A DNA stretch of 64,000 nt from Sulfitobacter faviae (lineage in GTDB: Bacteria; Pseudomonadota; Alphaproteobacteria; Rhodobacterales; Rhodobacteraceae), in the NCBI RefSeq assembly GCF_029870955.1, contig NZ_PGFQ01000003.1, positions 65,678-129,677 of the forward strand, read 5' to 3'. Shown here in pieces: positions 26,114-35,382 of this stretch. Each line of letters starts with the position of its first letter. The first letter of the stretch is position 1. Made by a program: the position numbers and the translations under genes. The notes beneath the pieces are model-generated. The model saw only the letters and a list, made by a program, of their open reading frames with translations. It made no database searches and was not told the origin of the DNA.

Positions 26114-27190
26114 ATGAGTGTCGTCACCTACTTCGTTGAAACCTCCCAAGCCTATCTCGACACCGCCGCTGAGACCCAGTTTGGCGCGGTTGCGGCAACG
26201 GTCGGCACGCTCCTGGTTTTGGGGACAACGCTGGTGGTGATCCTCGTCGGCACCAACATGATCTATCAATATCGGGCCATGGATGGGCACACAGCCTTCT
26301 GGCTCGCGGTCAAGATCGGGCTCATCGGGATATTCGCGACCAATTGGATGCAGTTCAACGCGTTCTCGTCAGCCATTCTCTATGGGATCGACAGTATCGC
26401 GGGTGCGCTGGTAGCCTCCGTCGGCGGCGGCAGTCCGGGGCCCTCTGGAACTTTCGCCGAAGAATTCGACCGGCTGATCGCGGAACTGGGCAACTATTTG
26501 AACGCTGCCGGGTCCGAACTGAACTGGATGGCCGGCGCCATGCTCGACATCGTCGGTGTTCTTCTGCTCTCAATCCTCGGCGGACTGGCCGCCTTCATCC
26601 TCGTGGCCTCCCGACTGATGATCGCGCTTCTGATCGGGATCGCCCCGGTGATGATTTTCCTGACCCTCTTCGAGGTCACCAAGGATTATTTCGCGCGCTG
26701 GCTGTCCGCGCTGATTTCCTTTGCGCTATACCCCATCGTCGTCGCAGGCGTGTTCGCAACGATCACAGGCGTTTCCTCCGCGCTCATCGGCGAACTAGGC
26801 GATCCCGAAGGGGCCTCAAACATCGGCGCGCTCATCCCCTTCTTCATGATGGTGCTCATGGCCAAGGGCTTCATTATCGCCACGCCCTTCATCGTCCGCG
26901 CGATCTCCGGCAACATCATGATGCCCGCCCTCTCCGGAGGTCTCGACGGCGGCTACAGCTTTGCCCGCGCCGCCATGGGAGGCCAGCAGGCCTACAATCG
27001 CTACCTCATCGGCGGGGCCAGTGGCGCAGAATACGCAGCCCTCAGGGCGCGGCAGTTCTTTGGCGTGCAGCAGATGCCTGCAAGGCAAGGCATGGGGCAG
27101 ACGGGTTCCGGAGGCGGCACAGGATCCACTGACGCAGGGTCCAAAATGCTGGCGCAGCTGGCGAGACTGGGTCGACTTGGACGACGGTGA
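26114..27190 (+). CDS. virB6: VirB6 polytopic channel protein
   Basis: The 358-residue TrbL/VirB6 protein has about six to seven hydrophobic segments, including the family core IGIAPVMIFLTLFEVTKDYFARWLSAL. A long central loop (~95-140) and a Gly-rich C-terminal tail (~320-358) are visible. It forms the inner-membrane channel with VirB8 and VirB10. It is the last gene of the virB operon; 137 bp later the convergent patatin gene ends. Confidence 0.9.
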   Translation: MSVVTYFVETSQAYLDTAAETQFGAVAATVGTLLVLGTTLVVILVGTNMIYQYRAMDGHTAFWLAVKIGLIGIFATNWMQFNAFSSAILYGIDSIAGALVASVGGGSPGPSGTFAEEFDRLIAELGNYLNAAGSELNWMAGAMLDIVGVLLLSILGGLAAFILVASRLMIALLIGIAPVMIFLTLFEVTKDYFARWLSALISFALYPIVVAGVFATITGVSSALIGELGDPEGASNIGALIPFFMMVLMAKGFIIATPFIVRAISGNIMMPALSGGLDGGYSFARAAMGGQQAYNRYLIGGASGAEYAALRARQFFGVQQMPARQGMGQTGSGGGTGSTDAGSKMLAQLARLGRLGRR

Positions 27191-27326
27191 CGGCGCTAGC
27201 TGGACGATAAAGAGTTGATCAGCGCCATGGACCAGTTTTCGCAAGAGCGGTCATTCGCGACACCTCACGAATCAGGATGCCTCAAGCACATGCTTACGTC
27301 GGAAAACTCGCACTTGCTCACACATT

Positions 27327-28502
27327 TCACGACAGTTCTGGCATGTGCTCGGCAATCAACGCGTATGTCAACTGTTCACCACGCTTGCTGAGTTTCTCGA
27401 TCCACTCCTCCGGCATTGTAGAGAAGTCAGTAGGATATCCATGTACGTCTTCTCGTGAAACGAGATCCGATGGCGGAAACGCGAGGCGGGAGTCATCCTG
27501 GCCGAGAAAAGGCATGGCAAACCCCTTAATCTGTCCTGACGACTTCAAATCGAATAGACGCTTCACGGCTGCGTTTTGAGCCCTGTCGAAGATGCTCGTG
27601 AACGTGCTTGTAAGGCGCGCCATGAAGAATTGGCTCGGTGGATCAAACCGAAGACCGTATCCCGCGCGGCAGCAGATGATTGTGTCCACATTAGAGACGT
27701 TTAGACTTATGGAGGAATCTCGATCCGGCCAAAGCGGCGCAAGGCCCAAGTTGTCATATGCCCCGCCGTCAGTCAGGGTAACGTGTTCCTCGCGCCGCGA
27801 TCCGTCAGGCTTGTTGAAGGCGAGACGTTCATCAAGCGCTGGCAGAAACAACGGATATGCCGCAGAGGCCATGACTGCATGTGCAAGAGTCGTCTGTGAA
27901 CCGGCAAGTTCTCCGAGACGCCAAGATCCCGACTTCTCCCGCGAGAAATAGAAAGCCGAACCCGTGCGCAAATCCGCGGCATTGATAATCAGAAGTGGGC
28001 GCGTCAAGGGCAATTGCCGCAACTTCTGACCATGAAAGACATCTTCGTCCAAGACCCTACGCAAGATCGTCGTCCTGCTCGCAAAACGCGGCATGGGTGC
28101 GCGCAACTTTTCTAGGCTCCAGCGCTTTCGCGCTGTCGTTGGCAGTAACAGAGCAAGGAGGCGCGGTCCGGTCGCGATCGCCAAGATGGCGACGTTGATC
28201 ACTCCAAGAAGGGCAGCACAATAGACCGCTCGCAGGCCTTCGGTAGTTGTGAACACTTTACGCAAGGCGGGGCGAACCAAACCGCGGGCAAGTAATGATC
28301 GCACTTTGGTCTCGAAGACCGTGAAAGGTTCGTCATTGGCCGCGTAGAGTGCGCCAATGACGCTTCCCCCGGATACCGTCGAGATAACCCGAACTTCGTC
28401 AAGAATCCCCAAGTCATGCAAGGCGCGCAGACAGCCCAGATGAAACGCAATGGCACGGGATCCACCGCCTGAGAGCGAGAGGCCGATTGCGGGCTTACTC
28501 AT
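27327..28502 (-). CDS. patatin-like phospholipase with membrane segment
   Basis: The 391-residue patatin-fold lipid hydrolase has the oxyanion loop SGGGSRA (~11-17), nucleophile elbow STVSGGS (Ser44) and catalytic Asp in LTDGGAYDN. A hydrophobic stretch (~100-120, LLGVINVAILAIATGPRLLALLLP) suggests membrane contact. The ATG overlaps the stop of the E2-E1-JAB gene (ATGA), so it is the last gene of that operon. Patatins in comparable operons (e.g. CapV of CBASS) attack the cell's own membrane upon infection; the same effector role is inferred here, although no cyclic-nucleotide synthase is next to it. Confidence 0.85.
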   Translation of the reverse strand: MSKPAIGLSLSGGGSRAIAFHLGCLRALHDLGILDEVRVISTVSGGSVIGALYAANDEPFTVFETKVRSLLARGLVRPALRKVFTTTEGLRAVYCAALLGVINVAILAIATGPRLLALLLPTTARKRWSLEKLRAPMPRFASRTTILRRVLDEDVFHGQKLRQLPLTRPLLIINAADLRTGSAFYFSREKSGSWRLGELAGSQTTLAHAVMASAAYPLFLPALDERLAFNKPDGSRREEHVTLTDGGAYDNLGLAPLWPDRDSSISLNVSNVDTIICCRAGYGLRFDPPSQFFMARLTSTFTSIFDRAQNAAVKRLFDLKSSGQIKGFAMPFLGQDDSRLAFPPSDLVSREDVHGYPTDFSTMPEEWIEKLSKRGEQLTYALIAEHMPELS

Positions 28503-30783
28503 TGACCCGATCCGTCAGCCAGCGGAGAAGGTTCTTTATTTCGGCGCATGAACACAACAGCGAGTTCAGCCTGCCCGGCAATCAACATCAGTCCGGGCAA
28601 GGTATCCATGTCAAATATGGTGGCGAGCCAATTGATCTGGGATAGGTCCGTAACACTCGGCATCACCCCCGCCAGTGGCGGGTGTGAATGCCACTCACCG
28701 ACGTAGCGCAGCTGTCCCTGTGTCTCGGCCATAGATCGGTCGATCATCTGTTGGACACCGCCGGTGCCCCGGACGAACCCGGTCGGCGATCCGATGCTGT
28801 CAGCAGGTGCTTTGGCGGCATCGGCAAGGTGTATTTTCCGCGCAGGAATGTCGACGACACCCAGCAGAATACCTCCGGTCTCGTTCGGCAGGCAATCATC
28901 TCGCATCGCGGCGATGCGTGAGCGGAGTCCGCCATCGAGTGCGACCTGCCAGCCATCGACATCGAAGCGACGCACATCCTCCGCAGGATAGGAAACGTGC
29001 CGGACTTCGCCGCCCGCTCCGAGTGACCAGATGCGAATGACCCCATCATCAGAATCGGCGGCCCGTCCCAGACCTTCCGCAACCAAGCCACTTAGGGCCA
29101 TGACGCGCGATTCAGGGATCAGGTTTGTGATGGCACGGCAGGCGCCAGTGTAGGCGAATGTCCGTACCGGGGTTTCCAAATGACCGGCGAGAGCTTCCTC
29201 GCGGACGATGTGCCCCAGATACTGCGCTTCCAGATCGCGCAACGTGACGCTGCGATCTTTCGGTTCGGCCAGTAGAACGGCGGCATCGCCCGCCGGGCTG
29301 AAAAAGATGCTGAACCGCCGAGCCTTGGAGTGATGGTCAGAGAGGAAGCGCTCAGCCAGCAAAGAAGCGGATGCATCCACGATGATATCGGCATCATCGA
29401 GCGCGCGATCAACATCGTCATTCCGCTGCCCTTCGACCCCGATCTGGGCGGTTATCGCCGTGGCCACAGTGTCTTCATCGTCAAGTATGCTCGCCAGCGC
29501 CCCGGCAAGCAATTCAGATTTGCGTCTCGTGACGTCGCCGCCGAAGCCGACATGACGAGCAAGGTTGTGTGGAAGCAGGACGTCATCGTCTATCACCGTC
29601 CAGCAAAAGCGCCCCTCTCGGGCAAGACAAGGAGCGACATGGGCACCGATCGCGCCCCCTCCGACGATCACAGCTTGGCGTTCATCCGGGATGGTGCGGC
29701 CCGCAAGCCGGGTCGCAAGGTCTCGGTCAAAGGTAGCGTGGACTTCGACCGGAAGCACGGCCATCGCGATGAGGGCAGCCTCATCCACAGCTCCCGCAGT
29801 CAATGCCGGAACGAAGCCGGCGGCACCCCCCTGATCCCTGCTTTCAACCTTGTGGGCAATTCCGAGCGCGACCGCGAGGTCACCAACCTTCTCAGCAGTG
29901 ACAAAGGCCCGCATATCGGTGCCCTGTTGTGTTCCGTCTGGTGAGGCAATCGGCATCTCGACGATCACGGCCAGGCAGGAATTGATCCGCGCAGCATTGG
30001 TCTGCGCGTCGTTCAACCAACCAGCGAGGCGCGTGCGCAGGTCGGCGAACAGGTCGATCCCGCGCACCGTAAGCAAGTCGGCAAGGCTGCCAAGATTACC
30101 TGGCGCGAACGAAAGCCGCACCATCTGCGCCGGAAGCACTCGGTATGCTGCCACCGTCAACGGCAAAGCCAGTGTGCGCCCCTCCAGCTGGGAACGCGGG
30201 ACCACGCGCATCAGCGTGCCCGTGTCGTCAGGGACAGCGACGAGATCCTGTGTGTTGGCGTTATCGATCAACGCACGGGACATAATGATGTTGTAGCCGG
30301 TCCCGAACATAAGCGGGTCGACCGGCTGCCGGGCGTCATGCAAAGCGCCCTCGGCAGCTCGCCGAAACCAGGCAAGGATACGGTGGACAAGCTCGGCCGG
30401 TGTCCATGTGAGGCGCGCTTCCGCCCAACTTCGGTTATCGATACAGATCGCGCGGGTGATCCTTCGGCAGTGAGATTTTGGTGGGCAGTGTCGGGAAAAT
30501 CACTCCGCAACACGTAGACGAATGGCATCGTATCGCCGCCAGCGAAGCGAACGCCAATTCGTTCTGTGCGCCGGATTGGCACGACGCTCTGCTGCGGTCT
30601 GCCGGTCCTGAAGGTGAGTTCTACAAGCTCACCGGCCCCTCCCCTGCGTAGTGCTAACACGGCAGCGAGCTCGGCGGCATGCCGGTCGACAAACCGCGCA
30701 AACGTTGACGCTGCCGAAGAGGTGAGGTCATCGACCTCGATCACTTCGTCGAAGGATGCGGTGAGCCAGGCTTCGACGTCCAT
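28499..30783 (-). CDS. E2-E1-JAB triple-domain ubiquitin-like conjugation protein, one frameshift
   Basis: The reconstructed ~760-residue protein has three enzyme modules. The E2-like domain (~1-150) carries a putative catalytic Cys (~114) in CIDNRSWAEARLTWTPAEL. The E1/ThiF domain has GGGAIGAHVA near residue 375, then IDDDVLLPHNLARH and a candidate Cys in YTGACRAITN. The C-terminal JAB/JAMM isopeptidase has Glu in NETGGILLG and HSH-x8-S-x2-D in EWHSHPPLAGVMPSVTD, near residue 699. A single missing base at ~30446-30450 splits the E2 (stop at 30268) from the rest (open from 30343); repair gives SPARS(x)CIDNRSW. Cap2 of CBASS is E2-E1 with a separate JAB (Cap3); a single chain with all three is rarer. 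Overlaps with MBL (TAATG) and patatin (ATGA) mark one operon. Confidence 0.85.
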
Positions 30784-31913
30784 TAACCAGCCCTGGGCGA
30801 CGCCGCCGCGGCGGTTCCAGCAACCATCGGCGCGGCAAGCGCAAGGGCGAAACCAAATGCCGTGATCTTGTATGCGAAGGGCGTAGGGTCACTCTTCGAC
30901 GGGTACTCCATCGTCACGATGAATTCGCCGTCGTGCGCCACAGTGATCCGACGGTGATAGTTTGCAGCCTGCCGGTGCGGGGGCTGGACGTCGTCGTCGG
31001 CCTTCGAACCTTTCACTGGGATCGGCCAGGACGGAGAGATGATGTCGCTGCCGGGTTGGCGCTGATCCTCGAACAGCCACTTGACGTTGGGGTCAGGGAC
31101 AGTCTCGTTCGAGCCACGCTCTGGCCCCAACGACTTATAGGAGCAATGGTGCGGCAGCTTCATCAGATCCCAAGCGAGCCTGTCCTCATTGCCGTGCTTC
31201 CGGCTAACCTGGATGATCGCAGCCAGCGTCTCGTAATTGACGTCTGAGGCGAGAAGCAGCCTCGTCTTCCGGCCGCCCTCGACAAAGGTGGCCTGCATGA
31301 CGATCGAATCTTCGTTGCGGTCGACGACAGTGTTTTCATCTTGTCGCCAGCCAAACGGGCAGTGCACAAAAAACTCTACCTTCTCTGGTCCAGTCAATGT
31401 GTACCCAGGCACGAGTTTGCCAGCATCCACAATCAAGTGCTTGCGGCTTTCAAAGTCGATCCCTTCCGCCTCCATCCAAGCCTTCAGCCGTTCGGGGCGA
31501 GAGAACACTCGAATACCCTTGCCCTGACGCAAACGGTACCGTGCCTCCGCACGGACCAACCGCGCATCATCCTTCAAGTTCTCTTCAAGGATTGCCGCTG
31601 CAGGTACCCAGAGCTCCCTGATCTTTACGCGACCCTTGCCTTGGTAGAGTGCAGCATGATCCAGCCAGAAGAAGTCACCGAACCCCTTACAGTGATCGGC
31701 GTCAGTGTGCGTGATGCAAACCGCATCGAAGTAGTCGCGGCCCGCTTTATCCAAGTCGCGGCGAAGTGTCGTCGGCAAGTCGCAACGCTGGTCATCCTCA
31801 TCGCCGTCGCAACGCATTGCGGCGAAGTCGATCAGGATCTTGCGCCCATCGGCAAGGTCGAGGCGGGCGGTGTCGGCGTTGCCGAGCGGAAAGAAGTTCA
31901 CCAGAGCCTGCAT
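30783..31913 (-). CDS. metallo-beta-lactamase-fold hydrolase with C-terminal hydrophobic tail
   Basis: The 376-residue MBL-fold protein has the metal motif THTDADH (His69, Asp71, Asp73, His74), a later Asp in LLLASDVNYETL and His in KLPHHCSYKSLG. It resembles ComEC/Rec2-type MBL domains more than beta-lactamases. The last ~25 residues are hydrophobic (FGFALALAAPMVAGTAAAA), possibly a membrane anchor. The stop and the E2-E1-JAB start share TAATG. MBL proteins have been reported beside prokaryotic E1/E2/JAB genes; the substrate is unknown. Confidence 0.82.
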   Translation of the reverse strand: MQALVNFFPLGNADTARLDLADGRKILIDFAAMRCDGDEDDQRCDLPTTLRRDLDKAGRDYFDAVCITHTDADHCKGFGDFFWLDHAALYQGKGRVKIRELWVPAAAILEENLKDDARLVRAEARYRLRQGKGIRVFSRPERLKAWMEAEGIDFESRKHLIVDAGKLVPGYTLTGPEKVEFFVHCPFGWRQDENTVVDRNEDSIVMQATFVEGGRKTRLLLASDVNYETLAAIIQVSRKHGNEDRLAWDLMKLPHHCSYKSLGPERGSNETVPDPNVKWLFEDQRQPGSDIISPSWPIPVKGSKADDDVQPPHRQAANYHRRITVAHDGEFIVTMEYPSKSDPTPFAYKITAFGFALALAAPMVAGTAAAASPRAG

Positions 31914-31962
31914 TTCACTGTCCTCATATTTTTGCCCGAGCAGATTGGGCAGTTTTTTTGAC

Positions 31963-31981
31963 CTCCAGCCCCGTGCTGGAG
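31963..31981. other. hairpin between the DUF2188 gene and MBL
   Basis: CTCCAGC (31963-31969) and GCTGGAG (31975-31981) form a perfect 7-bp stem directly after the DUF2188 stop. A second short stem (TGCCC 31933-31937 / GGGCA 31947-31951) is followed by T7 on the plus strand, so that one would terminate plus-strand transcripts. The pair may tune expression between DUF2188 and MBL. Confidence 0.4.
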
Positions 31982-31982
31982 T

Positions 31983-32204
31983 CTAGCCTTTCGGCGGATA
32001 GGGATCGTTCCCATAGGAATTGGCATCGCGGATCTGGCCATTGGGCCGATGGATGACGACCTCGCCTCGCTCTCGGATCGCCGTGGTGCGTGCGGCCGCG
32101 CTCGCCTCTGCCTGAGTCGCATGCGTGGATCCGACCCGGGTAGCGCCCTCACGGCGTGCAGCCCAACCATCCCCGTGGCGGACCACATGAATACGCTTTG
32201 ACAT
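31983..32204 (-). CDS. DUF2188 small protein with C-terminal Gly
   Basis: The 73-residue protein starts MSKRIHVVRHGDGWAARREG and ends NSYGNDPYPPKG, the DUF2188 signature ends. An AAGGAG lies 6-7 nt before the ATG at 32204, which rules out the longer frame from 32267. Predicted order is two strands, a helix (TQAEASAAARTTAIRER), two strands. DUF2188 proteins are widespread and uncharacterised. It is the first gene after the shared operator and ~70 bp before MBL, so probably the first gene of the conjugation-enzyme operon. Confidence 0.8.
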   Translation of the reverse strand: MSKRIHVVRHGDGWAARREGATRVGSTHATQAEASAAARTTAIRERGEVVIHRPNGQIRDANSYGNDPYPPKG

Positions 32205-32273
32205 CGAATTCTCCTTATTTTCCTGACTCGCCTCAATTCGAAACTGTTGACCCCGGCCCTTCGGCATGATTCA

Positions 32274-32354
32274 AGTGTTTCACAGACTGGTATAGGCCAG
32301 AAGCCTCGCCAAGTAAACAGTCGTCGCACCACTAATACCAGTCTACGAAACACT
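32274..32354. promoter_or_regulatory. 20-bp inverted operator pair in the divergent promoter
   Basis: AGTGTTTCACAGACTGGTAT at 32274-32293 and its inverted copy at 32335-32354 agree at 18 of 20 positions, differing only in the central AC/GT. They flank 41 bp that must hold the two divergent promoters. The right copy abuts the AAGGAGG of the Xre gene (32355-32361). The arrangement fits autoregulation by the Xre protein and repression of the DUF2188-MBL-E2E1JAB-patatin operon. Confidence 0.75.
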
Positions 32355-32365
32355 AAGGAGGGCAC

Positions 32366-32682
32366 ATGAATATCAACGAACTCGCCCCACTAGTCTTAAG
32401 GCGACGGGAAACATGGGGGTTAGGGCTGCCGCGAAGGAGATCGGGATCAGTCCGACCACACTCACGAGGATCGAAAAAGGGCATGTGCCAGACGTGGGCA
32501 CGCTCAACAAACTCAGCGAATGGTTGGGGGAGGAGCCTTCGAAGTTCACGGGCGTTGGAGACCTTCAAATCGCATTCAAGAACAGAAAAGCCGTCCCGCA
32601 AGCGACCGCCCTTGCTCTGGCTGAACTAATCACCCAGGCTTCGCGACAATTCGAACAAGACGTCGATGCTCGAGGACACTAA
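32366..32682 (+). CDS. Xre-family regulator, one frameshift
   Basis: From ATG 32366 (AAGGAGG at 32355) the product starts MNINELAPLVLRRRET. One G missing from the run 32415-32419 breaks it; repair gives WGVRAAAKEIGISPTTLTRIEKGHVPDVGTLNKLSEWLG, a classic Xre helix-turn-helix. Length ~105 residues. It is followed without gap (TAA GTG) by an ImmA/IrrE peptidase, a common regulator-protease pair in mobile elements. It is the likely binder of the operator pair. Confidence 0.8.
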
Positions 32683-33252
32683 GTGGCATTCAGACGAGGG
32701 TTCAAATCTCAATGTGAGCGGCGATCGGTCGAGTTTCGAAAACAGTTTGGCCTGTCGGATCACGACGCGCTGTCTGCCGACCGATTGGCAGAAGAGCTTC
32801 GAGTAACTGTTTGGTCCACCGATGAAGTTGATGGGATATCAGAAAGCGCAAGGTCGGTTCTGAGCGACGAGACTGATCAATCGTGGTCCGCCCTCACGAT
32901 GAGATTAGGCGCGGCCCATCTTGTCGTTCACAAACCGGTTTCATCTAAAGGTCGTCGCAACAATGTGGTGATGCACGAGCTGGCGCACATCATCTTGGGC
33001 CACGAACTCGCATCAGCCTGCATCCTAGAGGACGGCTCGCTTGTCCCGGGAAACTTCGATCAAGACCAGGAAGACGAAGCCGACTGGTTGGCCGGCGCCT
33101 TGCTGCTGCCCCGGCCCGCCCTTTTGTCTATTCGTCGCCGTCGGCTCTCAGACCGTGACGCTTGCAAAGAACATCTCGTCAGTCCGGACATGCTGAAGTG
33201 GCGGTTTCGGATGACGGGTGTAGACTACCAGCTTTTGCGCCGCCACACGTAG
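32683..33252 (+). CDS. ImmA/IrrE-family metallopeptidase
   Basis: The 189-residue zincin has HEXXH in VMHELAHIILGHE (His98, Glu99, His102) and the third-ligand region EDEADWLAGALLLPR, as in ImmA/IrrE. The GTG start directly abuts the Xre stop. In ICEBs1 and Deinococcus, such proteases cleave the partner Xre repressor on DNA-damage or other signals; here that would induce the divergent conjugation-enzyme operon. The role is inferred from pairing. Confidence 0.85.
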   Translation: MAFRRGFKSQCERRSVEFRKQFGLSDHDALSADRLAEELRVTVWSTDEVDGISESARSVLSDETDQSWSALTMRLGAAHLVVHKPVSSKGRRNNVVMHELAHIILGHELASACILEDGSLVPGNFDQDQEDEADWLAGALLLPRPALLSIRRRRLSDRDACKEHLVSPDMLKWRFRMTGVDYQLLRRHT

Positions 33253-33370
33253 CATTCTTTGCTCCCACTCCAAACGAAGGTCAGCTTTCGTTCCGGATTG
33301 CCAATTCATTTTCGGTTTCCACGAAAGCCCGATTCCAGTCCTGCCCGACAGACAGACCAAGCTCGCCAAC

Positions 33371-35382
33371 CTATCGAGCAACCAGATTTTCACCACCGTC
33401 CTCTCGCAGCATCGCTTCCATGTCGTCCAAGCCATCGACGGCGGAGCGCATCTGCGCCTCATTTACTACGCTCGCTGCCTCTGCATCGGCGACCTGGCTC
33501 CCAAAATCCATCTCCATCTGACGCTGTTCCTCGGCGATGACGGCTTGAACGACGGGCGAGGTTTTCTTTGGAACGCCGTCAGTTTGTCGTGACAGTTGCC
33601 CCCAGACGCCTGAGCTGAGTTTTCCACGACGGCTTCAGGTCCACTTGGTCCGTTCGCAGGCGGCGTCATCGGCATGGCGCGCACACTCAGCGGCAGCTTA
33701 CCCTGCGACCCACCTCCCCCCGGCTTCGGAAACGGCAACTCTCCCGTCTGTGCCGCATGGATCGCCTTGAACAGCCGATCGTCAAAATATTGGATCCGCT
33801 TCGCGCGGACCGGCATCTGGGCATCGATGACCATGACGATCTCGTCGAGCGGTAGGCGGCGCGCCTCATCCTCGGGCAGGAGAGAGCTTTCTTCGGTCCG
33901 GGTGGACTGGCTGCGTCCTTCAAAGGGGTTCTTGCCGATGGACTGGGAGCGCGTGACGACGGTCTTCGTGGTCTTACCGACCGCCTTGCTCAGCTCTTCG
34001 ACGGTCTTCTCATCCGAGGGCGTGAGATAGAGCTTCACGCCCGCATTGCCCTGCAGCGCGCGACGGGTGTTCTCGCCGTAGATTTCATCGAGGGCGGGGA
34101 TGGTTTGGGTGACCACGGCTAGGTGACCACGATAGGTCCGCAGGGTCTCGATGCTCTCGACCACGATGGGCATCTTGCCCAAGCGATTGAACTCGTCGAG
34201 CATGATCATCACCGGCCAGGGCTCATCCGGCCCGGGATCCTTCTCCTGCATCGCCGACAGCAGATCAGAGAAGAAGAGCCGGATCAGCGGCGCGAGGGGT
34301 TTGACCATCAGAGGCTGGACCACGAGATAGACCGAGAAGGGCTTCTTGCGGATTGTCCGGAAATCAAAGTCCGAGACCGCTGTCGCCTCATCGATCGCCG
34401 GGTTCTGCCATTGATCCAGTCCCGAGGTCATCAGAAGCGAGACATAAGAAGTCAGCGTATCGTTGTTGGTCGAGGCCAACCGGGTGAAGATCAGCTTGGC
34501 GGCCCGGTTGTCCACCTCGTGGCCCCGCGCGAAGTATTCCTTCTGCTTGTTCCCGCCCGAGGCCGCGATGCGATAGATCTCGCCCAAGGTCGGGCGCTTG
34601 CGCTGGAAGGCCAACAGGCCTGCCGCCACGAAGAGATCGATCCCGCCTTTGAGGAGGCCCTGCACCCGGTCGTTGTCGCTTTGCAAAAAGAGCGTCGCCA
34701 AGAGCTGCAATTCCATCTGCTGGCGGGCAGGATCTTTCAGTTGATAGATGCGCAAGAGCGGGTTGTAGCGATGCGTGCGCTTGCCCTCCCAATCGGTGGG
34801 GGCAAAGCGATAGACCTTGTCGCCTTGGGCTGCGCGGTGTCGGGCCGTGGCCTCAAAGCACTCGCCCTTCACATCGAGCGTCACGGCGGAGCCTTGCCAG
34901 GTCAGCAGGTTCGGAATGACAAAGCCCGTGGTCTTGCCACGGCCCGTGGGCGCCACGATCAGCGCATGGGGGAAGACCTTGGAGCAAATGTAATTGGCGC
35001 GGGAGCCGGGCGGCCCAAGTTTGCCGAGGATGAACCCGGTCCCGGGCGCCCCGAAGAACCCGTTGGCCTTCATCTCGCGCGCGGTCTGCCAATGGGTCTG
35101 GCCAAAGCGTGTGAGGGCGGACCCTGAGAGGGCGAGGCTCAGCATCAGGCCGGCGGCGGCGAAGCTGCCGACGATCAGGTGAATAAGTTGCGCGTCCTCC
35201 GGGCGGCGATCGAGGATCGCCAGATAGTTCTGCGCGATATAGGCAAAATCGATCTCGGCCCCGAAGCCGAGATCCTGGTAGGTCAGCACCGCCGAGGCAA
35301 TGGTATAGCCCATGGCCCCTGTCACCAGCGTCACGAGCAGGGCGCCCGTGGCGATCCGCGCTTTTCCCATGGAGGCGCTCAA
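33371..35382 (-). CDS. virD4: VirD4/TraG type IV coupling protein, C-terminal frameshift
   Basis: The ATPase joins the relaxosome to the T4SS. Two N-terminal TM segments (~11-33, ~66-88) are followed by Walker A APTGRGKT near 145 and Walker B VMIMLDEFNRLG near 390. The frame as written ends at 33466. A missing G near 33555 (CGCCCGTCG for CGCCCGGTCG) would restore PRPVVQAVIAEEQRQMEMDFGSQ and a stop at 33371. Start is TTG 35382 or ATG 35370. It overlaps the relaxase stop, so they are co-translated. Confidence 0.92.

Follow-up and report, generated by a model that had tools for sequence, protein, structure and literature searches.

An operon of the 6A-MBL anti-phage system lies at positions 27327 to 33252 of the 64,000-nucleotide stretch of Sulfitobacter faviae DNA analysed here (contig NZ_PGFQ01000003.1 of assembly GCF_029870955.1, positions 65,678 to 129,677; hereafter the window). 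Its core proteins are a metallo-β-lactamase-fold protein (MBL) and a protein with E2, E1 and JAB modules (E2-E1-JAB). Based on the C-terminal tail of the MBL and on the analogy to the type II cyclic oligonucleotide-based anti-phage signalling system (CBASS), we consider it probable that the MBL itself is the modifier, which would be adenylated and conjugated like the CD-NTase of type II CBASS. With slightly less confidence it can be assumed that 6A-MBL follows Cap2/CD-NTase as a second E1-E2 system in nature whose conjugated protein is a folded enzyme lacking a beta-grasp domain, that it uses at least three E1-matched tail codes (RAG, HG and YG), and that its precursors are trimmed by JAB like those of ubiquitin and SUMO. 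The MBL and E2-E1-JAB pair is already known as the 6A-MBL system; as far as sequence comparison goes, the new point would be the MBL tail as a candidate modifier end.

The locus belongs to this named system, as each of its two core proteins scores above the curated cut-off. In Pfam the MBL is matched weakly (E 0.099), but it reaches 424.6 bits against the NCBIfam model NF058524 (anti-phage 6A-MBL system, cut-off 220 bits), and E2-E1-JAB (cap2_3) reaches 531 bits against NF058523 (cut-off 320 bits) from its 28499-30343 part alone. The core pair is not new either: it was published in 2006 as operon type 6a, which a passage of that paper describes as usually consisting of two genes, for the triple-module protein and a specialised MBL (Iyer et al., 2006; PMC1779556). 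An earlier sequence-only reading of the window, which had proposed an unusual new defence type, has thus to be given up on this point, since the system already carries a name in NCBIfam. The same reading was right in recognising a ubiquitin-like conjugation defence operon that lacks a CD-NTase and a ubiquitin-like protein (Ubl): among seven open reading frames (ORFs) of the window scanned with Pfam there is no nucleotidyltransferase family and no Ubl family, ORFs of less than 60 amino acids being outside the scan and the search for small Ubls not systematic. To its remark that no Ubl is obvious, the glycine tail of the MBL is offered as an answer. Section 14 of PMC1779556 names no Ubl for type 6a and leaves the MBL tail unmentioned, and the words "lactamase" and "MBL" are absent from the main text of PMC10097602, PMC11153139, PMC10449767, PMC11354881 and PMC12355090. 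Among literature titles and abstracts we found none on the 6A MBL tail and none matching "6A-MBL"; subscription papers or bioRxiv may hold a prior report.

Three protein searches matched 3235, 2888 and 2225 proteins, and the best 120 of each (360 in total) were counted, namely those nearest to the window MBL (set 1), to an Enterobacter MBL (set 2) and to a diverged subtype (set 3). A tail motif with glycine as the last conserved residue, often followed by a short hypervariable extension, is present in 357 of these 360 best-matching homologues; the three exceptions (P0219, P0268 and P0304) are short, with 309-335 amino acids. Set 1 has the motif [RK][ASV]G in 120/120 proteins, in 119 of them at the very end. 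Set 2 has it in 119/120, at the end in 22, followed by one to seven residues in 96 and by 32 residues in one, and set 3 has [VI][GS][YF]G in 118/120, at the end in 21 and followed by one to six residues in 97. If the extension is limited to eight residues, the counts are 120, 118 and 118, respectively. The positional entropy at the glycine is 0 bits in all three sets, and that of the first extension residue is 3.15 bits in set 2 (n=96) and 3.70 bits in set 3 (n=97); the PRAG columns of set 2 show 0-0.07 bits versus 0.84-2.65 bits over the sixteen preceding positions. An invariant glycine with a hypervariable stub behind it is the hallmark of a processed ubiquitin-like C-terminus, as known from the precursors of ubiquitin and SUMO. 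In the model of the window MBL residues 361-376 are predicted to be disordered, and the terminal glycine is invariant, as are the metal-site residues. The MBL tails hence show the feature that goes with conjugation in type II CBASS, a conserved C-terminal glycine or alanine on an operon-encoded enzyme that is not a Ubl.

We collected 38 loci with E2-E1-JAB, comprising 16 plasmid loci, 9 + 12 genome loci and the window, several of which are near-identical. An MBL gene lies on the same strand in 37 of them, the exception (L053) beginning at a contig end, and all 37 MBLs have such a tail. Sorted by eye and with near-copies included, 29 tails are of the RAG type, which holds the two variants HRVG and VRSG, five of the HG type and three of the YG type; among the first 11 loci, RAG forms the very end of nine MBLs and is followed by three more residues in two. 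The tails are present in five phyla, the 37 MBLs including those of Nostoc, Deinococcus, Abditibacteriota and Hymenobacter, and plasmids of Cyanobacteriota, Deinococcota, Abditibacteriota and Bacteroidota keep the RAG type. Those proteins of the HG and YG types that were scanned likewise exceed the cut-offs of the 6A-MBL models. When 289 genomes were searched with an MBL of the HG type, three matches were obtained (L103, L104 and L105, outside the count of 38), of which L103 (HG) and L105 (YG) have a glycine tail and an E2-E1-JAB gene. As a control served 23 weaker MBL-fold matches with 22 complete ORFs, including L061 (a truncated 6A-like protein of 153 amino acids) and L080 (with masked residues): none of the 22 ends in glycine or has a motif, and no E2-E1-JAB lies within the examined flanks of any of the 23 loci. 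The truncated L061 (G388), the motif-free L104 and a second, weak MBL match located some 3 kb beyond the 6A MBL of G412 (G412:C20:239213-239401) are possibly decayed or accessory MBLs. A Cap2/Cap3-type operon (L102), not counted as 6A, has a nucleotidyltransferase-like neighbour that by eye ends in alanine, as in type II CBASS.

On a tree of E2-E1-JAB proteins the three tail types need two changes, which is the minimum possible, against a shuffled mean of 6.6, and each tail type makes up one side of a branch. The tree has 29 rows, 28 of them with a tail label (L053 is unlabelled), the near-copies L032, L046-L050 and L052 and the broken genes of L095 and the window being omitted. Such a fit would be expected from co-evolution of tail and E1, but also from common descent.

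Several points weigh against conjugation of the MBL. Linked genes share a tree under any mechanism, the YG type is represented in the tree by two identical copies that sit on a long branch, and the HG motif, besides being short, was set up with the tails already in view. Furthermore, the homologues are related and their counts not independent: set 1 (at least 68% identity) is conserved along much of the tail and too closely related to weigh much, and several upstream tail positions of set 3 are as invariant as the glycine. The extension is almost always missing in set 1, so that processing would not be universal. The 6A-like MBL L104 (G181, 452 amino acids as read) has no tail motif and no E2-E1-JAB in the examined flank; it matched the query over positions 64-270 only and may be broken. 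Finally, the tail could bind E1 without being conjugated, and where patatin is missing, the role of effector would have to fall to the MBL or another gene.

An alternative that we regard as unlikely takes up these last points: the MBL would be a plain effector or sensor, E2-E1-JAB would conjugate something else, either a protein of the host or of a phage or a small Ubl that has escaped recognition, the search for such Ubls not being systematic, and the tail would be a docking peptide for E1 or another partner. Conserved active-site residues of the MBL and the existence of operons without patatin (L037, L039, L040, L087, L090 and others) agree with it. However, a glycine end is not required of a docking peptide, whereas a last conserved glycine with hypervariable extensions fits a processed modifier, and none of the five other families sought in the 38 loci (patatin, DUF2188, ImmA, Xre and WYL) is near universal. 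C-terminal tails can also act as degradation or localisation signals, and those of set 1 are alanine-rich. That the MBL tail is such a signal, unrelated to E1, is nevertheless very improbable, because in these data the motif tracks the adjoining E2-E1-JAB (37/37 versus 0/22 controls), differs between E1 subtypes and is followed by further residues in most of set 2.

For an MBL that serves as modifier, the course of events can be drawn by analogy with type II CBASS. Upon infection or DNA damage the CapP-like peptidase would cleave the repressor and thereby lift repression. The fused E1 would adenylate the tail glycine of the MBL, and E2 would pass the MBL on to an amine of a target, in the way that Cap2 handles the tail of the CD-NTase, while the fused JAB would remove the short extension where present, cut conjugates and recycle. 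Conjugation would prime the MBL, which may act as enzyme or effector and is probably a nuclease or phosphodiesterase, and the patatin, where present, would attack membranes; how the activity of the MBL might be tied to patatin can only be guessed. This scheme is built on the intact copies of the relatives and not on the window copy.

In the window, a one-base frameshift near 30.46 kb, immediately ahead of the E2 cysteine, divides E2-E1-JAB between two frames, and the Xre gene, whose product has 105 amino acids in relatives, has a one-base frameshift near 32.41 kb, near its start. The triple fusion that had been read from the letters is consequently not a single chain in the window frames, and it stands in Sulfitobacter delicatus (L045), where E2-E1-JAB is unbroken. 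In the 761-residue chain of L045 and of L001, which is taken to be the same record, the E2 cysteine, the E1 cysteine and the JAMM residues are united, with C114, C549, H699, H701, S710 and D713 invariant in an alignment of six rows. The S. delicatus region is 99.97% identical to the window over 6.6 kb, with zero substitutions and two one-base length differences over positions 27000-33600. In the three one-base gaps nearest the operon the window is always shorter, in homopolymer runs of 4, 4 and 6; the third of them, at position 33604 in the C-terminal part of a type IV coupling protein gene, hints at a homopolymer error of the assembly. As the breaks lie in homopolymer runs and the near-identical copy of S. 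delicatus is intact, the two frame breaks of the operon are likely sequencing or assembly errors. It is possible, though doubtful, that the window copy is instead a natural pseudogene or uses programmed frameshifting. The frames are broken in the sequence as given, and four more one-base gaps in an 18-kb comparison with S. delicatus (one near 21.0 kb, three at 38.3-38.5 kb) lie in diverged stretches with runs of at most 2, so homopolymers do not explain every gap. Against this speak the uniform direction of the three gaps nearest the operon and the lack of substitutions, as well as the fact that E2-E1-JAB is one open frame in 36 of the 37 non-window loci, L095 being the sole broken one. The window copy is therefore a broken member of the 6A-MBL system or a misread one.

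The features of the locus are listed in Table 1. The order DUF2188, MBL, E2/E1/JAB and patatin on the minus strand, the divergent Xre and ImmA genes, the TAATG junction at 30781-30785 between MBL and E2-E1-JAB and the ATGA junction at 28499-28502 between E2-E1-JAB and patatin were all borne out by ORF reading and Pfam, and so was the presence of MBL, patatin and a regulator of the Xre/ImmA type, which is CapH/CapP-like. Both flanks of the operon are made up of conjugation genes, TrbI/VirB10, a VirB11-type ATPase and TrbL/VirB6 on one side and a coupling protein and a relaxase on the other, which points to the operon being cargo of a conjugative element.

Table 1. Features of the 6A-MBL locus in window coordinates (aa, amino acids).
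Feature	Position	Strand	Remarks
Patatin-like phospholipase, presumed effector	27327..28502	-	391 aa; Pfam Patatin 2.1e-21; ATGA overlap with E2-E1-JAB gene
E2-E1-JAB gene, remainder (E1 adenylation and Cys, C-terminal JAB/JAMM)	28499..30343	-	614-aa open frame; Pfam ThiF 2.4e-11, Prok-JAB 5.3e-9
E2-E1-JAB gene, first part (E2 N-terminal region)	30268..30783	-	Prok-E2_A 3.6e-5, 23.7 bits, slightly below the Pfam cut-off of 25; NF058523 positions 1-51
6A-MBL metallo-hydrolase	30783..31913	-	376 aa; ComEC-like MBL fold, HxDxDH at residues 69-74
MBL C-terminal tail, unstructured, ends ...SPRAG	part of 30783..31913	-	proposed conjugated modifier
DUF2188 small protein, ends ...DPYPPKG	31983..32204	-	73 aa from the start used in annotated homologues, ORF reaches 32267; PF09954 1.4e-20; PADLOC PDC-S16 8.8e-31
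Xre/CapH-like repressor, C-terminal part	32413..32682	+	HTH_3 6e-8; N-terminus in other frame from 32366
ImmA/IrrE (CapP-like) metallopeptidase	32683..33252	+	189 aa; Peptidase_M78 2.9e-11; PADLOC capP 1.3e-9

A patatin gene lies downstream of E2-E1-JAB in 21/38 loci, by a strict profile count that does not include L089 (opposite strand), L085 (further on) and L095 (behind the broken gene). As patatin is thus a common third gene, the novelty that had been seen in it falls away; of the neighbours once proposed as an exact gene set, MBL and patatin recur in relatives, whereas DUF2188 (8/38) goes with the regulator to other systems. ImmA is found in 14/38 loci (in L098 about 4.5 kb downstream) and WYL without ImmA in 7/38. 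Among the loci read, those of Xanthomonas, Enterobacter, Hymenobacter and E. coli plasmids have a WYL regulator and no adjoining patatin. On E. coli plasmid L136:1623-6019 a two-gene 6A operon is accompanied by a WYL regulator, and its MBL ends in PRAG plus four residues. Other genes follow E2-E1-JAB where patatin is missing (L085:6039-6716, L086:6055-6738, L084:6268-7056 and L037:7183-8690). The five third-gene ORFs of these loci (listed proteins of 225-269 amino acids) have no Pfam family over cut-off and are possibly alternative effectors. A tblastn search with E2-E1-JAB matched 312 of 72,556 plasmid records, most of them from Klebsiella or other enterobacteria; 199 matches cover at least 80% of the protein, and the partial ones include other E1 or JAB proteins. 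In the Phaeobacter and Ruegeria plasmids (L031:2820-5834, L032:2818-5832) AbiEi/AbiEii and a nucleotide-binding protein adjoin the 6A operon, forming a small defence island. At L062:1357-3234 a more distant MBL-fold protein of 468 amino acids is followed by a patatin-like gene, with no E2-E1-JAB in the stretch examined, and MBL-patatin pairs may thus occur outside 6A.

Being small, encoded first after the regulator and predicted to fold as strand-strand-helix-strand-strand with a low-confidence tail ending in glycine (PPKG), DUF2188 could itself be taken for the modifier. We reject this candidate as highly unlikely, as it occurs in so few of the loci and similar glycine ends are seen where DUF2188 stands next to a TIR gene, to a patatin or to unknown genes; moreover, DUF2188 also stands ahead of operons that bring their own multiubiquitin. 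The single-sequence model has low confidence (predicted local distance difference test score 67.8) and no match in the PDB at E <= 0.001, and the similarity to IPI_T4 is below the Pfam cut-off (E 0.022, 15.2 versus 25 bits).

DUF2188 rather gives the impression of a regulator partner. A Sulfitobacter pontiacus plasmid has an 88% match to the ImmA-Xre-DUF2188 stretch of the window, placed ahead of a multiubiquitin-ThiF-DUF6527 set, and DUF2188 is ahead of such sets in L041:8991-12093, L042:6015-8068 and L043:6001-9062. In Mesorhizobium, ImmA/Xre/DUF2188 stands ahead of a CBASS-type operon with a CapV-type phospholipase and a nucleotidyltransferase (L044:4522-8294). The adjoining regulator is ImmA/Xre in L041 and L044, an annotated HigA-family gene in L042 and WYL in L043; DUF2188 lies ahead of the multiubiquitin set in Sagittula (with annotated HigA-family and hypothetical genes) and in Synechocystis (with WYL). 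In one bacterial family DUF2188 is present in 29/198 genomes, and its upstream neighbour is an ImmA-family gene in 12/30 loci examined. Ten of 29 ORFs downstream of DUF2188 were scanned, yielding one patatin, ThiF, TIR and HAD each and six without family. The genome of the window has a second DUF2188 (L109, G000:C5:123776-123958) with a divergent ImmA-family gene and a DUF6791-ThiF protein downstream, which is probably a second ubiquitin-like immune operon. CapH plus CapP and CapW are described in the accessible part of PMC13373217 as DNA-damage-responsive controllers of immune operons.

With the 6A-MBL tails, a second folded enzyme, found in five phyla and often bearing a precursor-like extension, is nominated for conjugation by E1 and E2. 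The question which protein is conjugated by the triple-module enzyme of 2006 would then focus on the C-terminal glycine of the MBL, and the tail codes predict which MBLs pair with which E1. The DUF2188/ImmA cassette is an example of a regulator common to different immune operons.

Compared with known systems, the window operon shares with the 6A-MBL system two core proteins above the curated cut-offs, an MBL gene directly ahead of E2-E1-JAB and the location on mobile elements, whereas the branch of the window adds patatin and the DUF2188/Xre/ImmA cassette; the NCBIfam MBL profile ends at residue 354 of 376, leaving the tail outside the model. Bil and Bub systems have E1, E2 and JAB type enzymes too, and for Bub operons CapW or CapH plus CapP regulators are reported in the accessible part of PMC13373217; unlike them, the window operon has no beta-grasp Ubl gene recognised by Pfam among the seven ORFs scanned. 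The pair of a helix-turn-helix repressor and an ImmA-like M78 peptidase, divergent from the operon, resembles CapH and CapP, a likeness known from the genes alone, with the repressor frame broken in the window. Cap2/Cap3-type components are present by homology: intact E2-E1-JAB resembles Cap2 (7tsq, E 0.0044) and a solved peptidase (9ild, E 1.1e-4), PADLOC matches E1-E2 (4.2e-24) and JAB (2.8e-21), and the Cap3 model NF050170 gives 29.1 bits, below its cut-off of 200. According to the accessible part of PMC10097602, type II CBASS includes phospholipase effectors, and the C-terminal glycine or alanine of its CD-NTase is conserved only with Cap2/Cap3 and needed for conjugation. Both systems thus have, in the same operon, an enzyme without beta-grasp fold and with a conserved small residue at the C-terminus. 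In 6A-MBL, however, the MBL stands in the place of the CD-NTase, JAB is fused, and the tail carries motifs that differ by subtype, often together with an extension.

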